Of a stretch of 45,285 bases of DNA, positions 875-11,718 are shown piece by piece. Source of the DNA: Thermoplasmata archaeon (GTDB lineage: Archaea; Thermoplasmatota; Thermoplasmata; Lutacidiplasmatales; UBA184); assembly GCA_021798195.1 (NCBI GenBank), contig JAJZYH010000013.1, positions 1 to 45,285 of the forward strand. The letters are read 5' to 3'. The notes under the pieces were generated by a model that had not been told where the DNA came from, ran no database searches, and saw only the letters and a list, made by a program, of their open reading frames with translations. How positions within the stretch are numbered: position 1 is the stretch's first letter; each line of letters begins with the position of its first letter. The position numbers and the translations under genes are program-made.

Positions 875-926
875 GGGATGGACGCATGGGTTCCTTTGAC
901 GAGCGCACGGAACGAGGCCACCCGGG

Positions 927-2375
927 ATGAGCAGCGCCATCATGCTACCGCACGAATTGCAATCGCTCCTGGGGCTGCGCCGCCCTCAATCGATCCTCAT
1001 CCGGGGAGCTCCGGGGTCCGGTAAGACCACTCTCGCCCTGGCCCTTTTGGAGGGATTCTCAGGCCGGAGGTTCTTCGCCACCTTTCGGGTCTCCAAGGAC
1101 GATCTCTACGAGCAGTTCCCCTGGCTGGGGAGCTCCGACGGGAACTCTGTGGGCGTGATGGACCTCGCTACGGAGGGGGGGACCACGGATGGGACGGCCC
1201 GGAGCTCCCCGGACGGCCCGTCCCCCCCGGGGGAGCCCCCGCTTCCCGGCCCCCTGCGCGAGATCTGGGCGACCAGTTCCCCCCAACGTCCGACCATCCT
1301 CGCCATCGATTCGTGGGAGGCTTTCGTCGAGGCAAATTCCGTCCCGGGGGAGCGTTCTGCTTCCGACGCTACCTTGAGGGGCCGCGCGATCCTTTCGCGC
1401 CTGACCCACGGACCCGCCACAACGGTTCTCATCTCGGAGCACGAGGGACCCACCCCCCTCGATTATCTCGTGAACTCCGTCCTGGACCTGCGGACCGAAT
1501 CGTTCGATGACCGGGCGGAGCGCTGGCTCTACCTGACCAAGATCCGCGGGGTCCGCATCCTGAACCGGGGATACCCCTTCACGCTGGAAGGGTCCCGCTT
1601 CACCTGCGTCACCCCGGTCCATGCGGAACTCCGCGCCCGTCTCCCGCGGGGGGAACCCGCGCCGGATCCGCAGCCGGGCCATCTGTGGCCGGGGTCCGCG
1701 CAGTTCGCCGCGCACTTCGGGGAGCTCCCCCTGAACCGGATCATGATCTGGGAAGCGGACGAGGGGGTTCCCCTGGAGACCATCCGCTTGCTCTTCGCTC
1801 CCATCGTCTTCCAGGTGGTCCGGGACGGAGGGAGGATCTTCCATCTCCTTCCGTTCGGGTTGCCCCCGGACGACGTGTGGAGCTTCTACAGTTCGGTGGT
1901 TCCCATCGAGGAGTTCGCCCGGCAGGTACGCATCCAGACCTCGGTCTATCCCCGCCCGGACTCCGGGGTGCCCGAGTCCGTCATCGCGCCGATGCGGAAC
2001 GCCTCGGGCGCCGCCGGGCCGCGCAACCCTGCGGCGCACCGCTTCATCCGAGAAGGGGGGAAGCCCGGCGCCCCCAACCTGATGGTCATCTGGACGGCCG
2101 GGCTGCACCCTCAGGAGCCCGGCGACCCCCCTCCGTACACCCCCGACAACCTTCCCGCCATCGCCACCGCGTACTTCGGGGCCGCCCCGGTCCACGAGAT
2201 CTTCATCGGGAGCCCCGGGGATCCGTTCCTCGGGAGCCTCCGGCCCATGGCCGCCATCCGGATCCGTCTCAGGGCACGACGGGGCCGGGTCTTCCTCTAC
2301 GGAGAGAGCCCCATGACGCCCCCTCTCCTCCTCGTGGTGGAGGGGGACGGCTACCGTCTCCTCCCCATGGTCTGA
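927..2375 (+). CDS. KaiC/GvpD-like RecA-superfamily ATPase
   Basis: A 482-residue protein with an N-terminal P-loop ATPase domain: Walker A GAPGSGKTT at residues 27-35 and a Walker B strand PTILAID ending at D128, followed by SWEAF, typical of the archaeal KaiC/GvpD branch of RecA-like ATPases. A low-complexity Pro/Gly segment (about 90-110) interrupts the domain. The C-terminal half (about 260-482) resembles the non-catalytic second half of GvpD-like proteins and has no P-loop. Such proteins act in signalling or regulation; the target is not evident here. An in-frame TGA at 897-899 fixes the start at 927 or the ATG at 939. No neighbour reveals its role; DUF835 proteins, often found in the same genomes, lie downstream at 7139. 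Confidence 0.75.
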   Translation: MSSAIMLPHELQSLLGLRRPQSILIRGAPGSGKTTLALALLEGFSGRRFFATFRVSKDDLYEQFPWLGSSDGNSVGVMDLATEGGTTDGTARSSPDGPSPPGEPPLPGPLREIWATSSPQRPTILAIDSWEAFVEANSVPGERSASDATLRGRAILSRLTHGPATTVLISEHEGPTPLDYLVNSVLDLRTESFDDRAERWLYLTKIRGVRILNRGYPFTLEGSRFTCVTPVHAELRARLPRGEPAPDPQPGHLWPGSAQFAAHFGELPLNRIMIWEADEGVPLETIRLLFAPIVFQVVRDGGRIFHLLPFGLPPDDVWSFYSSVVPIEEFARQVRIQTSVYPRPDSGVPESVIAPMRNASGAAGPRNPAAHRFIREGGKPGAPNLMVIWTAGLHPQEPGDPPPYTPDNLPAIATAYFGAAPVHEIFIGSPGDPFLGSLRPMAAIRIRLRARRGRVFLYGESPMTPPLLLVVEGDGYRLLPMV

Positions 2376-2415
2376 CGGCGATCCCCGAGGTCTTCCTCCC
2401 CTGCCTCGGGCGGAA

Positions 2416-2423
2416 GGTTATAG
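2416..2423 (+). promoter_or_regulatory. TATA box for the epimerase at 2448
   Basis: GGTTATAG lies about 28 bases before the GTG start at 2448, which predicts a leaderless transcript beginning at or next to the start codon. Confidence 0.5.
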
Positions 2424-2447
2424 GGCGACTCGTGTTCGGGGCCGTCC

Positions 2448-3413
2448 GTGGCCGTCGTCGGAGTGACCGGGGCTTCCGGTTTCCTCGGTGGAGCCCTGGT
2501 CCCGTCGCTGGCGAGGGAAGGCTTCGACCTTCGCCTGGTGGACGACTTCTCGGGCCCCATCCAGGTGGTCCATCCGTCCCATCCGGTGACGCGCTGCGAT
2601 TTCCGCTCCCCCCAGGCGGAGAAGATCCTCTCCGACGCTGACGTGGTGCTCCATCTGGCCGCCGTTTCCGGGGTGGTCCCCTGCGCCGAGGATCCCCGCG
2701 GGAGCCGGGCGGTGAACGTCGAGGGGACCCGGGGCCTCTTGGAACGCCTCCGGGACCGGAGGATCCCCCTCGCCTTCGCCAGCAGCTTCGCGGTGGTGGG
2801 GGTCCCGGAGCGCCTGCCCATCACGGAGGAGACGCCCCCGGCGCCCACCCATGCCTATGCCGAGCAGAAGGCCGAGGGGGAGGCGCTGGTCCACGCCCTC
2901 CTCTCGGGAACGGCGGGAGGGGCCATCCTGCGGATGAGCAACCTCTACGGGAAGTACACGCTGGGCTCGCGGGTCATCGCCAAGGGGAACGTCCTGAACC
3001 TCTTCGCGCGGCAGGCATGGGAGGGCTCCCTGCGGGTGAACGCTCCGGGGACGCAACGACGCGACTTCATTCACCTGGAGGACGTGGTGGCCCACTGGGT
3101 GTCGGCGACGCGCTACCTCCGGGACGGCCGGGCGCGGGGGGGCGTCGCCACCTTCAACGTCGCGAGCGGGGAGACCGCAAGCATCCTGGAACTGGCCGAA
3201 CGGGTCCGGGCGGCGTGGGCAAAGCTCCATCCGGAGCAAGCCCCCCTGCGCATCGAGATCGTTCCCAACCCCCGGGGCTCCATCGAACTCCTGCAACCGG
3301 AGTTCTCAGTGGACCGCCGGAGGACGGAGAAGGAACTGGGGGTCCGCTGCCGGCATGACCTCTCGACGTCGCTGGAGGAGATCCTCCAAGGCTCGGGCCC
3401 CTCCGGACCATAG
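2448..3413 (+). CDS. NAD-dependent epimerase/dehydratase (extended SDR)
   Basis: A 321-residue Rossmann protein. The NAD site GASGFLG is at residues 8-14 after a VAVVGVT strand. The catalytic pair is YAEQK with Y137 and K141, preceded by an SSF serine region. RRDFIHLEDVV and FNVASGE in the second half are typical of UDP-glucose 4-epimerase and related sugar-nucleotide enzymes. The substrate cannot be read from sequence. The GTG start is supported by the TATA box at 2416-2423. It probably supplies sugar nucleotides to surface glycan or lipid glycosylation, in line with glycosyltransferases elsewhere in the window. A second member of the family lies at 38969. Confidence 0.85.
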   Translation: MAVVGVTGASGFLGGALVPSLAREGFDLRLVDDFSGPIQVVHPSHPVTRCDFRSPQAEKILSDADVVLHLAAVSGVVPCAEDPRGSRAVNVEGTRGLLERLRDRRIPLAFASSFAVVGVPERLPITEETPPAPTHAYAEQKAEGEALVHALLSGTAGGAILRMSNLYGKYTLGSRVIAKGNVLNLFARQAWEGSLRVNAPGTQRRDFIHLEDVVAHWVSATRYLRDGRARGGVATFNVASGETASILELAERVRAAWAKLHPEQAPLRIEIVPNPRGSIELLQPEFSVDRRRTEKELGVRCRHDLSTSLEEILQGSGPSGP

Positions 3414-3433
3414 AGTCCGGCCGGCGCAAGAAA

Positions 3434-3447
3434 GGACTTATTTGGGA
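3434..3447 (+). promoter_or_regulatory. BRE/TATA for tRNA-Ala
   Basis: GGACTTATTTGGGA lies about 25-35 bases before the tRNA start at 3471, the spacing of an archaeal TATA element with a purine-rich BRE in front. Confidence 0.4.
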
Positions 3448-3470
3448 CCGTGGTTCCGCCGCTCGGGGTC

Positions 3471-3575
3471 GGGCTGGTAGATCAGTTGGAAGATCGCTAC
3501 CTTGGCAAGGTAGAGGCCGCGAGTTCAAAAGGTCCCGAGGCCACCCCTCGGGACCCGGATCTCTCGCCCAGTCCA
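3471..3575 (+). tRNA. tRNA-Ala(GGC) with a T-loop intron
   Basis: Acceptor stem GGGCTGG/CCAGTCC (3471-3477 / 3568-3574) carries the G3-U70 pair that identifies alanine tRNAs, with discriminator A3575 and no encoded CCA. D arm GATC/GATC is at 3480-3495. Anticodon arm CTACC-TTGGCAA-GGTAG (3497-3513) has anticodon GGC at 3504-3506. The T stem GCGAG/CTCGC (3519-3523 / 3563-3567) encloses 39 bases instead of 7; removal of 32 bases (3530-3561) restores the consensus T-loop TTCAAAT. The mature tRNA would be 73 bases. A simple cloverleaf search may miss this gene or call it degenerate. Confidence 0.9.
3530..3561 (+). other. Intron of tRNA-Ala, T-loop position 59/60
   Basis: Thirty-two bases folding as a 10-bp perfect stem GGTCCCGAGG/CCTCGGGACC (3531-3540 / 3546-3555) with loop CCACC. 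With the T stem it forms a bulge-helix-bulge: helix TTCA/CGGA (3524-3527 / 3556-3559, one A-C mismatch), bulges AAA (3528-3530) and TCT (3560-3562). Cuts between the second and third bulge bases give exactly this intron and T-loop TTCAAAT. Confidence 0.8.
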
Positions 3576-3680
3576 CTCCCCCGGGGGAAGGACCTCCATG
3601 AGGGGGGGGACCCCTCGGGGCGTTCCCAGGGGGGGACCCGTGAGATTGTCGAACTACCCCTTCGACAGAATGGAACATGT

Positions 3681-3688
3681 CTTATAGG
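3681..3688 (+). promoter_or_regulatory. TATA box for the COG1709-like regulator
   Basis: CTTATAGG about 25 bases before the GTG at 3710 predicts a leaderless transcript; it probably serves the whole regulator-HMGS-thiolase-DUF35 run. Confidence 0.5.
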
Positions 3689-3709
3689 TCGAAGTGACTC
3701 GCGAGGCGC

Positions 3710-4387
3710 GTGCCTCTGGAGCTCAAGGAGAAGATCGCGGGCGAAGTGGTCCTCTCGCCCCACCCGGGAAGGACCCTCCGGAAGTGGCGCGAGGATTTCG
3801 GGATCTCCCAGCGCGAGCTGGCCCGGTCCCTGGCCACGGTGCCGTCGGTGATCTCCGACTACGAATCGGAGCGCCGGACCAGTCCGGGAGCGGGATTCAT
3901 CCGGCGCTACGTCGACGCCCTCCTCAACGTGGACAAGCAGAACGGGGGGAAGGTCTCGCAGCGCCTCGGGTTCCGCCCTCCTTCGGAGGGGATCCTGGGG
4001 ATGCGCGAGTTCGCCATCACGGTGCCCTTGCGCGCCCTCGCCGAGGCGCTGGAGGCGACCCCGGTGAGCCACGTGGACATCCACCGGGACCTCCACGGAT
4101 ACACCCTTCTCGACGCTCCCCGGGCCATCCTTTCCCTGAGCGCCCAGGAGTTCGTGCAGGTCTACGGGTGGACCACGCAGAGGGCCCTCATCTTCTCCGG
4201 CGTGCACTTCGGGCGATCCCCCATGATCGCCATCCGGGCCCACCCTCTCAAGCCCGCGGCCGTGGTCTACGCGGCCGCCCCCCGGGTGGACCCGCTCGCC
4301 ATCCGCCTCTCCGAGGTGGAGAACATCCCCCTGCTCACGTCCCCCCTGGGGGCAAAGGAAGTCCTGGAACGGCTCGAAGATCTGTAA
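3710..4387 (+). CDS. XRE-type HTH transcriptional regulator, COG1709-like
   Basis: A 225-residue protein with an N-terminal Cro/CI-type helix-turn-helix (about residues 20-70; [20 protein letters not shown] then DYESERR) and a C-terminal domain of about 130 residues rich in short hydrophobic strands, as in the archaeal COG1709 group of predicted regulators. It ends 19 bases before HMG-CoA synthase and is read in the same direction, so it may control the mevalonate-entry genes and itself; that is inference from context. The GTG start follows a TATA box at leaderless distance. The C-terminal domain may sense a CoA ester or isoprenoid, but no ligand-binding motif is recognisable. Confidence 0.75.
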
Positions 4388-4406
4388 GAGAGAACGGAGG
4401 AAGCGC

Positions 4407-5477
4407 ATGGAGAATGGGAACAGCGTGGGGATCGTGAGCTACGGGGCGTACGTGCCACAGTACCGGATCGCTCCCGGGGAGATCGGCCGGGTGTGGGGAG
4501 CCGATGGGGAGGCCATGGGGAAGAGCCTCTTCGTCCTGCGCAAATCGGTCCCCGCCCCCGACGAGGACACCATCACCATCTCCACCGAGGCGCTGCGAGT
4601 GGCTCTCGCCCGGGGACGGATCGATCCCCAGGACATCGGGGCCATCTACGTGGGGAGCGAGAGCCACCCGTACGCGGTGAAGCCCACCGCCACGGTGGTG
4701 GCCCAGGCCGTGGGGGCCACGCCCTACCTCACCGCGGCCGACTTCGAGTTCGCCTGCAAGGCGGGGACGGCGGCCATCCAGACGTGCATGGGGCTCGTGG
4801 CGAGCGGCATGATCCGGTACGGGGTGGCCATCGGCTCCGACACCTCCCAGGGGGCCCCCGGCGATGCCCTGGAGTACTCCGCGAGCGCCGGTGGGGCCGC
4901 GTTCGTCATCGGCCGGGAAGGTATGATCGCCCGGATCAACACCACCCAGAGCTACACCACGGACACCCCCGACTTCTGGCGGCGGGAAGGCCAGCGCTAC
5001 CCCAGTCATTCGGGACGGTTCACCGGGGAGCCCGCCTTCTTCCGCCATGTGGGCGAGTGCGCCCGGAAGATCATGGAGCGGTGCAGCACGCAGCCCGCGG
5101 ACTACACCCATGTGGTCTTCCATCAGCCCAACGGGAAGTTCCCCACCCGGATGGGAAAGGCGCTGGGTTTCTCCGACGAGCAGATGCGGTGGGGGCTCGT
5201 CACCCCCTACATCGGGAACACCTACTCCGGTGCGGCGCTCATCGGCCTCGCCAACGTGCTGGACCATGCCCGGCCCGGGGACCGGGTCCTCGTGGTGGGC
5301 TACGGCAGCGGGGCCGGTTCCGATGCATTCGACCTCACGGTCACCGACGGGATCTCGAGCTACGACCGCTCCACGGGGACCCCGGTCCAGGAGTTCCTGG
5401 AGGGAGGCGTCCCCCTCAACTACTCCGTGTACGCGAAGTTCCGGGGGAAGATCCATCTCGGGGGGTCCTCCGCATGA
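4407..5477 (+). CDS. Hydroxymethylglutaryl-CoA synthase (archaeal)
   Basis: A 356-residue thiolase-fold enzyme that condenses acetoacetyl-CoA with acetyl-CoA to HMG-CoA, the committed precursor of mevalonate and archaeal isoprenoid lipids. The catalytic triad is in place: E85 ([13 protein letters not shown]), nucleophile C117 ([11 protein letters not shown]) and H239 (VVFHQPNGK). Length and spacing match archaeal HMGS. A Shine-Dalgarno GGAGG precedes the ATG. Its stop overlaps the start of the thiolase-fold gene by ATGA, so the two are translationally coupled. In methanogens HMGS, thiolase and a DUF35 protein form a complex that channels the acetoacetyl-CoA intermediate, and the same three genes stand together here. 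Confidence 0.93.
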
Positions 5478-6643
5478 GGGATGTGGCCATCCTGGGCGTG
5501 GGCCAGACGAAGTTCGGGGAGCTCTGGGACCGCTCCTTCCGGGAGATCGGCATCGAGGCGGGACTCGCCGCCCTGGAAGGGGCCCGGCTCAGCTCCCACG
5601 ACCTCTCGGCGCTCTACCTGGGCAACATGGCCAGCGGGGCGTTCATCGACCAGGAGCACATCGCCCCCCTCATCCTGGACTACGCGGGGCTGGGGAACCA
5701 CCATCTCCCGGCGATCCGGGTGGAGGCCGGGGGCGCCTCGGGGGCCGTGGCCCTCCACCAGGCCTACCTCGCCGTGGCGAGCGGGCACCACGATTTCGTC
5801 GTCGTCGGCGGTGCCGAGAAGATGACCGACGTCCCGGACGCCCTGGGGCAGGCCATCACCTCTGCGGCGGCGGACCAGGAATGGGAGACGGTCTTCGGGG
5901 CCACCCTCCCGGCGCTCTGGGCCCTCGTGGCGCGCCGGCACATGCACGATCACGGGACCCACCGGGAGGATTTCGCGCGGCTCAGCGTGCTGGCCCATGA
6001 GCATGGGAGCCACAACCCGCTCGCCCACTACCGGAACAAGATCTCCCTCGATGCGGTCCTGGGGGCCGGCATGGTGGCGGAGCCCCTGGGGATGCTGGAC
6101 TGCGCCCCCTCCTCCGACGGAGCCGCAGCCCTGGTGCTGGGCCCCCTGGAGCTCGCACGTCGCTACACGGACACCCCCATCCGGATCGCCGCCAGCGAGA
6201 TGGCCTGCGATTCCATGGCCGTCCAGCACCGGCGCGATGTCACCACCGTGGACGCCACGGTGATGGCCGCCCAGCGGGCCTTCCGGCGCGCCGGCCGGGC
6301 ACCGGGGGAGATCCCTCTGGCCGAGGTCCATGACTCCTATTCCATCAGCGGGCTCATCGCCCTGGAGGATCTGGGGTTCTATCCCAAGGGAGCCGCCGCC
6401 AAGGCCCTCCGGGAAGGGGTGGGCGCGGTGGGGAGCCGGCTCGCGGTGAACACCTCGGGGGGCCTCAAGGCCCAGGGGCAGCCCTTCGGGGCCGTGGGGG
6501 TGGCGCAGGTGGCGGAGGTCGTCCGCCAGCTCCGCGGGGAGGCCACCGGCCGGCAGGTCTCCGGCCCGGAGCGCGGGCTCACCCACAGCCTGGGGGGCAC
6601 GGGAGCCACGGCGGTGGTGCACATCCTGGAGCGCGTGAACTAG
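5474..6643 (+). CDS. Thiolase-fold (SCP-x-like) subunit of the HMGS cluster, catalytic residues replaced
   Basis: A 389-residue protein with full thiolase architecture, coupled to HMG-CoA synthase by an ATGA overlap and followed by the DUF35 gene. The fold and the flanking motifs are those of archaeal acetoacetyl-CoA thiolase, but active-site residues differ. The nucleophile segment, usually VEAACASG, reads VEAGGASG with Gly87 (GGC, 5732-5734). The HDC motif reads HDS (286-288). The GHP motif reads GQP with Gln336. With nucleophile Cys and GHP His both gone it should not catalyse Claisen condensation by the known mechanism. It may act as a structural partner holding HMGS and DUF35 together, with the thiolase at 34763 supplying acetoacetyl-CoA. 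Function is inferred; the residue changes are seen directly. Confidence 0.85.
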
Positions 6644-6656
6644 AGGAGGAACGAAG

Positions 6657-7142
6657 ATGGGAACGGTGGCACGATTCTGGCGCGAGACACCACGACGGTA
6701 CAACCTGGGGGGGAACCGGTGCGCCCATTGCGGGAGCGTCTACTTTCCCCCGCGGTCGGTCTGCCCCACCTGCGAGACGCACCGCAGGTCGCTGGGCCAT
6801 CTCGAGCCCTTCCAGCTCTCGGGGGACGGAACGATCTTCTCCTACACGGTGGTCCACGATGCGGCGGAAGGGTTCGAGATGCAGGTCCCGTACGTCCTCG
6901 CCCTCGTGAAGACCGTGGAGGGGCCCCTCCTCACGGGGCAGGTGGTGGACGTGGACCCCCGGGAGGTCCGCATCGGGATGAAGGTGCGCGCCGTGTTCCG
7001 GAAGCTCCGGGCCGAGGGGGCGGCCGGGGTCATCCACTACGGGTACAAATTCGCCCGGGTCCCCGAGGAGGGCCGACCGGCCGCCGGCGCTCCGGCCCGG
7101 GCGGCCGTGCCCTCCCGACCGGACGCCCCGGCTGTGGTGTGA
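6657..7142 (+). CDS. DUF35 OB-fold protein with rubredoxin-like zinc ribbon
   Basis: A 161-residue protein. The N-terminal zinc ribbon has CAHC at residues 22-25 and CPTC at 36-39, and is followed by an OB-fold (about 50-135) with GTIFSYTVVHDA and VPYVLALV strands. DUF35 proteins bridge HMG-CoA synthase and thiolase in archaea and hold the shared CoA-binding pocket. A strong Shine-Dalgarno (GAGGAGG) precedes the ATG. The last 25 residues are Ala/Pro-rich. The next gene starts on GTG overlapping the stop. Together with the two upstream genes it forms the HMG-CoA module; here it may tether HMGS to the inactive thiolase-fold subunit. Confidence 0.9.
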   Translation: MGTVARFWRETPRRYNLGGNRCAHCGSVYFPPRSVCPTCETHRRSLGHLEPFQLSGDGTIFSYTVVHDAAEGFEMQVPYVLALVKTVEGPLLTGQVVDVDPREVRIGMKVRAVFRKLRAEGAAGVIHYGYKFARVPEEGRPAAGAPARAAVPSRPDAPAVV

Positions 7143-7987
7143 CCGACTCTCCCGACCGCCCCGCGGGAGAGGGGCCCCCCCGGGCCGGGACCCCCCCGGG
7201 AGGGACCGCTCCCGACCGCGGGGAGACTCCACCCGAGGATCCCTTCCGGACCCCGTCGCCTTCCGCCGAGGATTCCGCGAGCGCGTACGCCCGAGGTTAC
7301 GGGGACGGCGTCCGGGGGGCCCTCCGGGAAGTGATCTCCCTCGCCGCGCGGGGGCACACCGCGAGCGAGATCCGGCTCCTGGCACAGACGCGGCTCTCGA
7401 AGCTGGGGGACGAGGTCGCCCTGCGTCGGAAGAGCCTCCTCGCCCCTCCCCAGAGGGTCCCCCTCGAGTCCCTGGTGCGCCCGCGCCTGCGGGGGGAAGG
7501 GCCCAATCCCCAGCATCCCCCGGCCGCACCGGGGTCCAGTTATCTCTTCCTCGAGGTCACCCCCCGCGAGGCCCGGACGTTCCTGAAGGACCTCCTGGGT
7601 CGGGGCGTGCGGGGCCTCGCCCTCACCCGGATCCCGCAGGACCTGCGCCCGGTGGCGCCTCCGCCGGCCCTGGCGATCCTCCATCTGGGAGGGGGCGGGG
7701 CCCCGGAGGAGGGGGTGGAGGCGGTCCAGTCGGACCCCAACTACCTCACGAGCCACGTGGCCAACTTCTGGGACTCGGCGGACGGGCCCGGGGTGGTGCA
7801 CTTCGAGGCGTTCGAGTACATGCAGTCCGAGACGAGCTTCGAGAAGGCCCTCAAGTTCGTGCACTGGCTGGTGGGGTCCGCCCAGTCCAACAAGGGCTAT
7901 CTTGTGGTCACGCTGGACCCGGGGAGCCTCGAGGGCCGCCAACTGAGCGTATTGAAGAAGGACTTCAACCATACGGTGTCCGGCTGA
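7139..7987 (+). CDS. DUF835 domain protein
   Basis: A 282-residue protein. Residues 1-50 are Pro/Gly-rich and look disordered. Residues about 50-105 form a predicted helical region (YARGYGDGVRGALREVISLA and on). The C-terminal 140 residues match DUF835 by pattern: a YLFLEV strand, LTRIPQDLR, the HFEAFEYM stretch with F-KALKFVHWL, and LVVTLDPGSL near the end. DUF835 is common in Euryarchaeota, often in signalling proteins with KaiC-like or sensor domains; no biochemical role is established. The GTG start overlaps the stop of the DUF35 gene, so it may be carried on the HMG-CoA transcript without sharing its function. Confidence 0.72.
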   Translation: MTDSPDRPAGEGPPRAGTPPGGTAPDRGETPPEDPFRTPSPSAEDSASAYARGYGDGVRGALREVISLAARGHTASEIRLLAQTRLSKLGDEVALRRKSLLAPPQRVPLESLVRPRLRGEGPNPQHPPAAPGSSYLFLEVTPREARTFLKDLLGRGVRGLALTRIPQDLRPVAPPPALAILHLGGGGAPEEGVEAVQSDPNYLTSHVANFWDSADGPGVVHFEAFEYMQSETSFEKALKFVHWLVGSAQSNKGYLVVTLDPGSLEGRQLSVLKKDFNHTVSG

Positions 7988-8002: not shown

Positions 8003-9238
8003 ATGCGGATCGCGTTCTTCACCGACAGCTTCCTGCCCACGCACGATGGGGTCGCCCAGGTCACGGCCAGCCTGGCGCATGCGCTGGCCCAGCTGGGCCA
8101 CACCGTGACCATCTTCACCGCGCATCGGCCGGGGCTCCCGAGGTACGAACGGCTTCCCGACGGGACCGAGGTGGTCCGCTCCCTGTCGATCCCCGTCCCG
8201 CATTACGGCCAGTACCGGTGGGCGATCCTTCCCCTCTGGACCGCCCTGGGGCGGAGGTTCGGCCGCACCTTTGACCTGGTGCACATCCACACCCCGGGTG
8301 TCGTGGGGGCCTCGGGCTTCCTCGCCGCGCGTCACTGGAAGGTCCCCCTCCTGGGCACCTTCCACACCAACGTGAAGGAGATGCGGGCGAGCTTCCCGGA
8401 CGATCCGCTCACCGGGATATTCTTCCGGCTCGCCTGGTGGTTCAACGCGGGGCTCTACTGGCGCTGCGACCGGACCACCGTGCCCACCCCGGCCGCCCTT
8501 GCGGCTCTGGAAGAGGGCTCCCGGAAGCCGTACCGGGCGCCCATCGAGCTCGTCCCCAACGGCATCGAGGTGGAGCGCTTCCACCCCGGGATCCAGGAAC
8601 CCGACTGGCGCCGGCGCACCGACGCGGGGGACGCCCCCCTCGTGACCTTCCTGGGCCGCCTCACCCAGGACAAGGGGGTCCACCGGTTCCTGGACGCCCT
8701 GTCGAGCCTCCCCGGGTCCCTCCGGTTCCGGGGCGTGGTGGCGGGGACCGGGATCGAGGATGAGAACGTGCGCCGGCGCATCGACACGGATCCCCTCTTG
8801 CGGGGACGGGTCGTGTTCGTGGGCCCCGTCTCGGAGGAAGAGAAACCGGCCCTCCTCTCCCAGAGCCGCGTCTTCGTCCTGCCCTCGGTGGCGGACACCT
8901 CCTCGGTGGCCACCCTGGAGGCCATGGCCTCCGGCGCCGCCTGCGTGGTGACCACCCGCGGGGGGCCCCGGGCGCTGGCCCAGAACGGGGCCACGGCCCT
9001 CATGGCCGATCCAGAGAACGTGCCGGAGATCTCGGCCCGGATCCGGGAGCTCCTCGAGGATCCCTCGCGGGCGGAGCTCCTCTCCCGACGGGCCGTGCGG
9101 TACGTCCGGGAAAGCTGCTCCATCCAGGCCACCGCGCGCATGTTCCTCAATCTCTACCTTAATCTGCTGGAAGAACGTTCTTCCCTCCGCCGTGTCCAGA
9201 GCGCCTACCGGCTCCCCGCCTCCGCCCCCCCTCGCTGA
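8003..9238 (+). CDS. GT4-family glycosyltransferase
   Basis: A 411-residue GT-B fold glycosyltransferase. The N-terminal half begins MRIAFFTDSFLPTHDGVAQV, with VHIHTPG and GTFHTN in the acceptor domain as in GT4 enzymes that add sugars to lipids. The C-terminal nucleotide-sugar domain has VPNGIEVERFHPG, FLGRLTQDKGV and VLPSVADTSSVATLEAMASG, including the E-x7-E-like region. It resembles mannosyl- or glucosyl-transferases acting on phosphoinositol or diacylglycerol-type acceptors; in an archaeon the acceptor could be an ether lipid. ATG follows the DUF835 stop by 15 bases. The end overlaps the next frame by 47 bases. Confidence 0.87.
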   Translation: MRIAFFTDSFLPTHDGVAQVTASLAHALAQLGHTVTIFTAHRPGLPRYERLPDGTEVVRSLSIPVPHYGQYRWAILPLWTALGRRFGRTFDLVHIHTPGVVGASGFLAARHWKVPLLGTFHTNVKEMRASFPDDPLTGIFFRLAWWFNAGLYWRCDRTTVPTPAALAALEEGSRKPYRAPIELVPNGIEVERFHPGIQEPDWRRRTDAGDAPLVTFLGRLTQDKGVHRFLDALSSLPGSLRFRGVVAGTGIEDENVRRRIDTDPLLRGRVVFVGPVSEEEKPALLSQSRVFVLPSVADTSSVATLEAMASGAACVVTTRGGPRALAQNGATALMADPENVPEISARIRELLEDPSRAELLSRRAVRYVRESCSIQATARMFLNLYLNLLEERSSLRRVQSAYRLPASAPPR

Positions 9239-10460
9239 GTTCGAGACCCTGGGCCGGTTCGCGCCCCCGCGCGTCCACGACGGCTTTTCCCAGACGAACC
9301 TGCGCCGGAGGCTTGCCGAATACACCCTGCGGTCCGTGTCCCCGGCCGCGCACGTCGTCCTGCGGCTGGACGGCGCGGAGCAGCCCTCGTGGGTTCCCCT
9401 CTTCCTCGGGGCGCGCCCTCCGCGGAAGATCGGACTGGGCTTCCACCGGCATACGGGGAGCCCCGAGACCTGGGAGTTCGTCCCCCCTCCTTCAGCCCTC
9501 GCCTTCACCCCCGGGGGTTCCGGCGTGATCATGACCCTGGACTTCGACCCCACCTCCCTGGACCCCTGGAGGCACGCCGACCGGGGCGTCCAGGAGACCT
9601 GCCTCGTCCGGATCTCCCTCCGGGAATGCTACGTGCCCCGGTCCATACGGCAGGAGCAGGGCGCCCGGTCCGAGACGCTCCCCACCGCCGCGCCGGGGGA
9701 GCTGTTCACCCCCGGAGGGTTCGTCGAGTTCGTCCGGACCACCGGGATCGTCCCATTCCAGGTGGCCCTCCTCGCCTACACGTCCGAGACGCGGTACCGC
9801 TATGAGATCGACCTGGTCCACAACGTCCTCCTCAAGGATCCCCGGGCGGGGAAGATGCCGTTGAGCTCGTTCGAGCCACGTCCCGTGCGGCTCCTCCATG
9901 GGCTGGACCGGACCGTGGCGCGCGGGGACCTTCCCCTGCTCCCCCGACGGATCCTGGAGACGCTCTTCGAATCGCAGGGCCTCAACGTGGTGGAGGCGGC
10001 GACGATCTTCGGGGTCTCCCCGGATCTCGCCGAGGGATCGCTACGGACCCTGGTGGCGCGGGGGTATGCGACGTGGGATCCCGGGGGTGAGACCTATCGC
10101 GCCCTCCCCTTCGCCGTCCTCAGCGAGGAGGAGGCGCGACAGCAGATGGCGGAGGAGGTCCATGCCGGTGGGCCAGAGACGCAAGCTCCGGAAGGCGGCT
10201 CACCCCCGGCCCCGGCACCGGATGAAGGTCCCCCGCTGGCGACCCCCTCCCCCCCCGCGGCCCCGTCGCCCCTCCGGCCCGAGGGGGAGGAGGGGGGGGC
10301 TCCCGGGCCGGTGGGAACCGGAGAGCCTCCCGCTTCCAACTGCCCCCTCTGCGGGGGTCTCCTCCCGGACCCCGATTCCCTCCGCCTGATCTGCCCCTCG
10401 TGCGAGAGGAAGGTGGGTACACCGGCGGAAGGAGGCCGGGAATCCCCCGAGGATCCGTAG
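9192..10460 (+). CDS. Orphan protein with winged-helix region and C-terminal zinc ribbon
   Basis: A 422-residue frame with good codon bias that I do not recognise as a whole. Residues about 15-250 form an alpha/beta region with several beta-rich stretches (AHVVLRLDGAEQPSWVPLFL, VIMTLDFDP). Residues about 245-310 look like a winged helix (RRILETLFESQGLNVVEAAT, then FGVSPDLAEGSLRTLVARGY). A Pro/Gly-rich linker of about 60 residues follows. The tail holds a four-Cys ribbon, CPLC and CPSC. Start choice is uncertain: GTG 9192 overlaps the glycosyltransferase by 47 bases and has no clear ribosome site. It could be a DNA-binding regulator or a scaffold; no function is claimed. Confidence 0.6.
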   Translation: MSRAPTGSPPPPPLAEFETLGRFAPPRVHDGFSQTNLRRRLAEYTLRSVSPAAHVVLRLDGAEQPSWVPLFLGARPPRKIGLGFHRHTGSPETWEFVPPPSALAFTPGGSGVIMTLDFDPTSLDPWRHADRGVQETCLVRISLRECYVPRSIRQEQGARSETLPTAAPGELFTPGGFVEFVRTTGIVPFQVALLAYTSETRYRYEIDLVHNVLLKDPRAGKMPLSSFEPRPVRLLHGLDRTVARGDLPLLPRRILETLFESQGLNVVEAATIFGVSPDLAEGSLRTLVARGYATWDPGGETYRALPFAVLSEEEARQQMAEEVHAGGPETQAPEGGSPPAPAPDEGPPLATPSPPAAPSPLRPEGEEGGAPGPVGTGEPPASNCPLCGGLLPDPDSLRLICPSCERKVGTPAEGGRESPEDP

Positions 10461-10578: not shown

Positions 10579-10878
10579 GCGGAGGATGGAGTCCACCCCG
10601 CGCGGAAGAATGTTTCGACCGGTGGTTCCCCGACTCCCGGATGCGATCCGTGGGGACTTCCCTGGTCCATCGATCCATCGGGGATCCCTCTCGAACCGTC
10701 TTCCCATCCCGTGTCCGCACCCCACGATGCGGCTCCTCACGTTCCGGGAGAGCGACGCTTCGGTACAGGCTCGGGAGCCATCGTCCCGCCCCACGTCTTG
10801 AAAAGATCGGGGAGGACGGGAAGAACCCTCCCTCCCCATGGCGCCCGTCGGTGGGCGTCGTTCCAAGGGAAGCCCGTC
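10579..10878. other. Intergenic stretch without a supported gene
   Basis: About 300 bases upstream of tRNA-Arg. Frames in it have atypical composition and no family resemblance. No clear tRNA promoter was found; GAAACATTC on the minus strand near 10608-10616 is a weak candidate. Confidence 0.4.
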
Positions 10879-10920
10879 TCAAGGCTTCTTCTTGGACTTA
10901 CACCCGCACGTGTCGCACAT
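10879..10920 (-). CDS. Candidate 13-residue CxxCxC metal-binding microprotein
   Basis: The minus strand encodes MCDTCGCKSKKKP and stops. The ATG at 10920 has a GGAGG ribosome site at 10926-10930 with 5-base spacing, and a TATA-like CTTATGAC at 10953-10960 that would start transcription close to 10930. The peptide has a CxxCxC cluster plus a basic KSKKKP tail. The cluster resembles the short metal-binding N-terminus seen in some HypB proteins, but nothing else of HypB is present. It stands alone in a 470-base intergenic region. Evidence for expression is indirect: promoter, ribosome site and cysteine density. A chance frame of this length is possible. Confidence 0.4.
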   Translation of the reverse strand: MCDTCGCKSKKKP

Positions 10921-11048
10921 GCAAGCCTCCGGGGGCTGCCATGCTCCCACGCGTCATAAGCATTCCCGTTTGAATGCTCGGCCCTACCGGTTCGGGAGCC
11001 CGAGGGGAGGAAGCACTCGGATCGCCCGTGGCAAGGAGTCGCCGGATC

Positions 11049-11693
11049 TCAGGCCCTCGACCGGGAGGGGGGGCCGGGGGGGATGGCCGAGGCCACGAGG
11101 TGGGCCAGCCGGAGAGGTTCCGGATAGGAGCCCCGGACGAGGCTCTTCCGGAGCAGCGCGAAGGCGTCCCTCCGAAGGATGCCTTCCATCGCCACCCAGA
11201 GGGGGTTGGGCTGCACGGGGAATGGGAGGAGGCGGTGCTCCGTGAGGAGCCGTGCCCGGGACGGTAGGGCGGGGAGGTGGCGGGCCAGAGCCCTTTCCAT
11301 GGCCTCGAAATCCGGGAACCGGCGGGTCACCGTGATGACGGGTAGCCCGGTCTCGCGGTGGAGCGCAGATAGGTCCACGAGGTTGAACCCCCCCATGGAG
11401 ATGCCCCCCAGGAGGATGGCCGAGGTCGCCTCCCGGTGGGACGATCCCAATACCATCCGGACCAGGACCTCCGTGGCGTCGGTGCCGTCCACGGTCACCT
11501 CGGAGCGCAGCACCCCTTCCACGTAGCCCGGTACGGAGACCACGAGCCCCACCACGGGAACGGTGGCGTCCCGGAACGTGAACGGAGCGTCGTCGAACGC
11601 GTACACCCGGGGATGGGGTTTGGACGGGACCGGGCCCTTGGGCCCCCGGGGAAGGTGCCGCGACGTCCTGGCCCCCACCTCTACCACCGGCAT
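11049..11693 (-). CDS. DUF99 (UPF0215) family protein
   Basis: A 214-residue archaeal protein of the DUF99 family, recognisable by YAFDDAPF near the N-terminus, VVGLVVSVPGYVEGV, the VDGTDATEVLVRM motif, LLGGISMGGFNLVDLSALH and LPVITVTRRFPD. Structures and weak similarity suggest an endonuclease V-like fold for the family, but activity is not established. ATG at 11693 is taken as start; a TTG at 11705 would add four residues and overlap the palindrome at 11703-11718. It is divergent from the zinc-ribbon membrane protein at 11726, with only 32 bases between the start codons. Confidence 0.82.
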   Translation of the reverse strand: MPVVEVGARTSRHLPRGPKGPVPSKPHPRVYAFDDAPFTFRDATVPVVGLVVSVPGYVEGVLRSEVTVDGTDATEVLVRMVLGSSHREATSAILLGGISMGGFNLVDLSALHRETGLPVITVTRRFPDFEAMERALARHLPALPSRARLLTEHRLLPFPVQPNPLWVAMEGILRRDAFALLRKSLVRGSYPEPLRLAHLVASAIPPGPPSRSRA

Positions 11694-11702
11694 GGGAACC
11701 CT

Positions 11703-11718
11703 CAAGGATTAATCCCTG
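11703..11718. promoter_or_regulatory. Inverted repeat between divergent genes, possible operator
   Basis: CAAGGATTAATCCCTG: the core GGATTAATCC (11706-11715) is a perfect palindrome and the flanks extend symmetry to 7 of 8 positions per half. It is midway between the starts at 11693 and 11726 and is the only AT-rich patch there. It is too close to either start to be a normal TATA box for a leaderless transcript, so an operator shared by both genes is more likely. Confidence 0.4.

Follow-up and report, generated by a model that had tools for sequence, protein, structure and literature searches.

The closest described counterpart of the locus reported here is the nickel site at the N-terminus of Escherichia coli HypB, which begins MCTTCGC. 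According to the accessible text of PMC7055735, HypB uses Cys2, Cys5 and Cys7 together with the N-terminal amine, within the motif CXXCGC, to bind Ni(II) with a Kd in the sub-picomolar range, and this site is described there as unique to E. coli HypB. The tip also binds metal as a free peptide: in the available part of PMC6848105, the 10-mer MCTTCGCGEG alone bound copper with a Ka of 1.3 x 10^6 per M, and CTTCGCG and MCTTCGCGEG gave copper Ka values of ~10^6 per M, with no nickel or zinc isotherm in the same set-up. We analyzed a 45,285-nucleotide stretch of DNA (the window) from a Thermoplasmata archaeon, in which a 13-codon open reading frame (ORF), running from ATG to TGA on the minus strand (10879-10920), encodes MCDTCGCKSKKKP. 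A sequence-only reading of the window had likened this peptide to the HypB N-terminus, and the likeness proved to be exact at residues 1, 2, 4, 5, 6 and 7 of the E. coli peptide as excerpted from PMC6848105. M1, C2, T4, C5, G6 and C7 are identical, MCDTCGCKSKKKP differs from the seven-residue E. coli tip at position 3 only, and both motifs stand at the extreme N-terminus. The candidate ligand set of the microprotein, Cys2, Cys5, Cys7 and the N-terminus, is that of the E. coli nickel site. HypB, however, is a GTPase with hundreds of residues, whereas the microprotein consists of the motif and a lysine tail; with 13 residues and no G3E GTPase domain, it is not a member of the HypB family. Met1 before Cys2 is normally cleaved, and its cleavage would shift the N-terminal ligand of the microprotein.

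The codons of the ORF, from the ATG at 10920, are ATG TGC GAC ACG TGC GGG TGT AAG TCC AAG AAG AAG CCT TGA. A Shine-Dalgarno sequence, GGAGG, lies 5 nt before the ATG (10926-10930, minus strand), and a TATA-box-like, AT-rich CTTATGAC starts 40 nt before it (10953-10960, minus strand). The coordinates and sequence thus bear out the 13-residue CxxCxC ORF that had been called on the minus strand, with GGAGG at 5-base spacing and a TATA-like box. The motif pattern occurred once in the window versus 0.00 expected (100 shuffles, one mismatch allowed), and of the nine window ORFs that have 12-18 codons and an upstream GGAGG, only MCDTCGCKSKKKP contains three cysteines. About 50 nt past the stop codon, a GC-rich stem-loop followed by CGATCTTTTC (10810-10832, minus strand) is a weak candidate for a transcription terminator (one found, 0.4 expected in shuffles). 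The sequence-only reading had also placed the ORF alone in a region otherwise without genes. This was slightly wrong: the ORF lies in an intergenic stretch of 588 nt, and a co-directional gene encoding endonuclease dU (PF01949, Pfam 7.8e-49; 11049-11705, minus strand) ends 128 nt upstream of it. The downstream neighbor (9192-10460, plus strand) is convergent and matched no Pfam family; another genus (L098) has a homolog close to its microprotein. At 10575-10507 on the minus strand, a weak tRNA-like match scored 23.6 bits, below the gathering threshold of 29. Its anticodon arm resembles tRNA-Arg(TCT), ARAGORN reported no tRNA at this position, and the match may represent an intron-interrupted tRNA.

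Lack of conservation of the peptide in sister genomes had been named as the outcome that would count against a gene. When the 103 genomes of the archaeal family were searched with two patterns and the resulting ORFs were read, the peptide was found to be conserved. Of 61 distinct pattern matches, the 49 with at most 18 residues were taken as members and the 12 longer ones as non-members, which gives 49 distinct loci in 42 of the 103 genomes and five of the seven genera, with up to three per genome; absences include misses, because the genomes are incomplete metagenome-assembled genomes (MAGs). Two copies are present in the window's own genome (1.75 Mb, 73 contigs). A 21-base MCxTCGC pattern, applied to 61 genomes with no condition on what follows, yielded 24 matches versus none for the reversed pattern, and 22 of the 24 are ORFs of 12-15 residues with a lysine run, all within the window's own family.

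Across the 49 loci, the microprotein is 12-18 residues long, starts with ATG (41), GTG (7) or TTG (1) and ends with TAG (27), TGA (13) or TAA (9). Cys2, Cys5, Cys7 and the motif CXXCGC are present in all 49, as the search pattern demanded. Position 3 is Asp in 41 loci, Glu in four and Asn in four; Thr4 is found in 48, lysine at positions 10, 11 and 12 in 44, 45 and 46, respectively, and Pro13 in 32. The conservation of the first seven residues is partly ascertained, because the search patterns fixed them wholly or partly. Length, stop codon, Shine-Dalgarno sequence and AT-rich box lie outside these patterns, and the lysine tail lies outside the widest pattern, yet is conserved. The claim that the ORF has its own promoter and ribosome site gains statistical support from the family: GAGG occurs in the last 18 nt before the start in 44 of 49 loci, whereas a control stretch contains it in 7 of the 49, and the AT content upstream peaks at 0.84 at position -39, in flanks that are otherwise ~0.3. 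We further compared 27 pairs of loci of equal length and 62-97% upstream identity, all other pairs being dropped. Identity was 96% at codon positions 1 and 2, 80% at position 3, 69% upstream and 52% just past the stop; conservation ends at the stop codon. With its frame, start, stop and ribosome site conserved, the microprotein is identified by these sequence comparisons as a real gene, which we take to be separately transcribed and translated.

We propose that this separately expressed gene encodes a peptide that would grip one soft metal ion and buffer or carry metal inside the cell, a reading to which we assign a probability of roughly one half. The ion (Ni, Cu or Zn) would be held in the manner of HypB, by Cys2, Cys5, Cys7 and the N-terminal amine, and the lysine tail may keep the peptide soluble and dock it on an acidic partner, be it protein, nucleic acid or membrane. 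By analogy with the HypB tip, metal binding by MCDTCGCKSKKKP is likely. Nickel is a possible metal and our first guess, because nearly all of the family has nickel superoxide dismutase (NiSOD), most of it has a NiCoT-type transporter and none of it has HypB above cut-off; Cu(I) and Zn(II) are also candidates.

NiSOD was detected in 95 of the 103 family genomes and, in the portion of PMC9287336 at hand, is also stated for Lutacidiplasmatales. Its co-occurrence with the microprotein (39 of 42 genomes with it versus 56 of 61 without; Fisher p 1.0) is uninformative, the enzyme being near-universal. NicO, a NiCoT-type nickel/cobalt transporter, was found in 79 of the 103 genomes, comprising 38 of the 42 with the microprotein versus 41 of the 61 without (p 0.008). 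This association is suggestive but confounded: it lost significance when phylogenetically independent pairs were compared (median p 0.5), and the small genomes of one clade may be its source. The window's own genome lacks NicO. HypB (TIGR00073) scored above cut-off in none of the 103 family genomes, with sub-threshold matches in 28, and a hydrogenase link was set aside on this count. A copper link through HMA could not be made, HMA copper domains being present in only 3 of 103 family genomes, and photolyase, considered as an unrelated patchy control gene, was dropped (1 of 103 genomes). A more far-reaching version of the proposal, which we regard as rather doubtful, is that the 13 residues are a complete metal carrier, the HypB nickel tip as a gene of its own. 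This carrier would supply nickel enzymes, NiSOD for example, in lineages without HypB, and the MCxTCGCxxKKK module would have been put to use again in a bacterium and as the opening of small phage proteins.

In a search of 84,980 species, the strict microprotein pattern was found in 30 stretches. The named-collection genomes with the microprotein are almost all 'Thermoplasmata archaeon' MAGs, among them UBA184, which PMC9287336, in the text available, assigns to the order Lutacidiplasmatales; the window's genome probably belongs to this order, too. Outside the family, neither a search of 300 class genomes (no stop condition, two lysines required) nor one of 389 genomes from the phylum with the stop pattern TRA turned up a short in-frame microprotein; since TRA misses TAG stops, the phylum-wide search tests absence outside the family only in part. 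Three other stretches labeled 'bacterium' (two matching G024, and L083, which has the G089 locus sequence) look wrongly labeled. The one bacterial relative is in Candidatus Omnitrophica (L071), where a separate ORF encodes MCKTCGCQDKKKPKPK after AAAGGAGG. This micro-ORF and DUF3786 head an oxidative-stress run on the minus strand (918-7630) that comprises DUF3786, a thiol peroxidase-like redoxin, a PTS-type enzyme, Rrf2, ferredoxin, VIT-type, DJ-1, rubrerythrin and desulfoferrodoxin genes. DUF3786 was rejected as a partner, as a plasmid set held one remote match with no Cys micro-ORF nearby. A viral origin was also rejected: the strict pattern matched no viral contigs, and a looser one matched 39 contigs, all with longer, different proteins.

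The co-directional Omnitrophica run, with its redoxin, rubrerythrin and desulfoferrodoxin genes, is consistent with a different role, in which the CGC and CxxC cysteines would cycle between dithiol and disulfide and the peptide would be a disulfide reductase, an isomerase or a peroxide buffer, not a metal carrier. Some microprotein loci lie near hemerythrin, Rieske and NADH oxidoreductase genes, and, by eye, a 50-residue protein with an MCDTCGC start (L003) directly precedes short rubredoxin-like CxxC ORFs. However, oxidative-stress neighbors are not constant, an H+-pyrophosphatase standing beside 28 of the 49 loci, and a cysteine at residue 2 in 49 of 49 loci, although required by the pattern, suits co-ordination with the N-terminal amine more than a redox pair. 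We consider a thiol redox peptide unlikely.

The H+-pyrophosphatase gene usually lies directly upstream of the microprotein, with Mre11-like and Rad50-like genes beyond. An HTH_10 regulator gene is upstream or nearby at five loci, including the second copy in the window's genome; the microprotein stands beside an MFS transporter at four loci, downstream of HxlR at two and downstream of a proteasome-type AAA ATPase at two, and the context seen in the window is common to one other genus. Across the 49 loci, no metal-related gene is a fixed neighbor. The transcription-factor genes in these surroundings, together with lysine in at least 44 of 49 loci at each of positions 10, 11 and 12, would fit a minimal zinc knuckle with a basic tail binding RNA, DNA or protein, as a small regulator or a machine cofactor. 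Yet three cysteines without a fourth residue ligand would make a weak knuckle, and the commonest neighbor is a membrane pyrophosphatase, not a regulator; this explanation, too, strikes us as improbable. Short, Cys-rich ORFs preceded by a Shine-Dalgarno sequence can be leaders, and the Omnitrophica micro-ORF has a same-strand gene ~66 nt downstream, an arrangement expected if the peptide were a leader or attenuator regulating that gene in response to cysteine or metal. In the archaea, however, there is nothing to attenuate, because the next downstream gene is usually convergent, as in the window and at many loci of the pyrophosphatase type (an uncharacterized neighbor is present at 20 of 49 loci); apart from Omnitrophica, exceptions include nine loci with a co-directional SDR gene, and a leader is accordingly very improbable. 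An origin of the ORF by chance or within a non-coding RNA, which the region's folding better than its own shuffles (z -3.4) might favor, is effectively ruled out by the reversed-pattern controls, the shuffles, the conservation, the codon-position bias, the turnover of stop codons and the GTG and TTG starts.

To return to the gene proposed to encode a metal-binding peptide, its distribution is bimodal. Of 60 stretches downstream of the pyrophosphatase that lacked an ATG match, a GTG version was present in 3, and the other 57 contained nothing like the microprotein. The best profile score in the empty stretches was at most 2.2 versus ~29 for members, and the genes downstream were often intact. 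The microprotein is present or cleanly absent, with no decayed copies. On a pyrophosphatase tree of 82 rows, its presence, counted anywhere in the genome and not only beside the pyrophosphatase, required 13 changes; with shuffled labels the figure was 27.5, and none of 500 shuffles came as low. Because presence clusters on this tree, we read the microprotein as inherited with repeated losses, not scattered.

Longer proteins share the start of the microprotein. In other Thermoplasmatota, proteins of 50-51 residues (L003, L262-L264) begin MC[DK]TCGC and so have the same MCxTCGC start, but are 4-5 times longer and continue with other residues. All four end in MKR and two further residues, and in L003 rubredoxin-like and TusA-like ORFs follow the 50-residue protein (by eye). 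MCATCGC proteins of 47-64 residues on the 39 viral contigs (L332-L370) share MCxTCGCxxKKK, but are likewise 4-5 times longer with other residues after it; they begin MCATCGCMGKKK or similar, and the next ORF in L332 begins MCATCGCGKPKDKHG. The Thermoplasmatota and viral MCxTCGC proteins scanned matched no Pfam, NCBIfam or PHROGs family, including the three viral-contig proteins scanned against PHROGs, and one viral-contig protein had no match among 50,697 phage records. A palindrome like ATATCAnnnnTGATAT lies just upstream of Cys-rich MCxxCGC proteins of 66-77 residues (L216 in the window's own genome, C36; L224, L229, L230 and L244) and looks like a shared operator. The archaeal family of the window also contains a recurrent 51-residue protein family, MCLTCGCKMPNDRHKPGD (L013, L246, L248), whose L013 member matched nothing in Pfam or NCBIfam.

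At 13 codons, the ORF is too short for ordinary annotation and, as the sequence-only reading had pointed out, far below gene-caller limits. A literature search returned no MCDTCGC and, among the matches listed, no comparable archaeal Cys, CXXCXC or nickel-binding microprotein. The ORF could sit uncharacterized in the catalog of PMC11364881, which, by the portion of that article available, admitted ORFs from 30 bases. We file the microprotein as a new and unusually short family among metal-site microproteins, a known kind. Because this length lies below the lower limit of gene callers and of most small-protein surveys, a conserved 13-codon gene shows that protein-coding genes exist below the usual search sizes. 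Its carriers are dozens of uncultured soil and mine archaea. If it is a free HypB-tip carrier, few known conserved protein genes that stand alone would be shorter, once leaders and precursor peptides are set aside. Should it bind metal, it would be the natural counterpart of the HypB peptides that chemists already synthesize and study, and a model for the minimum size of a metal chaperone, in NiSOD archaea that lack the usual nickel-insertion GTPase.

The intergenic microproteins of Enterobacteriaceae are likewise selected, tiny ORFs that annotation missed; that survey, in the sections of PMC11188072 available, covers 15-70 codons and mainly hydrophobic products, whereas MCDTCGCKSKKKP has 13 codons and is hydrophilic. 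The Haloferax zinc-finger micro-proteins (<70 residues, two C(P)XCG motifs) are, like the microprotein, archaeal, very small and based on cysteines for metal binding. As described in the available parts of PMC10716476 and PMC6562870, and compared by description only, they are longer and carry two CxxC knuckles; they have four ligands in two pairs, where MCDTCGCKSKKKP has three cysteines only.
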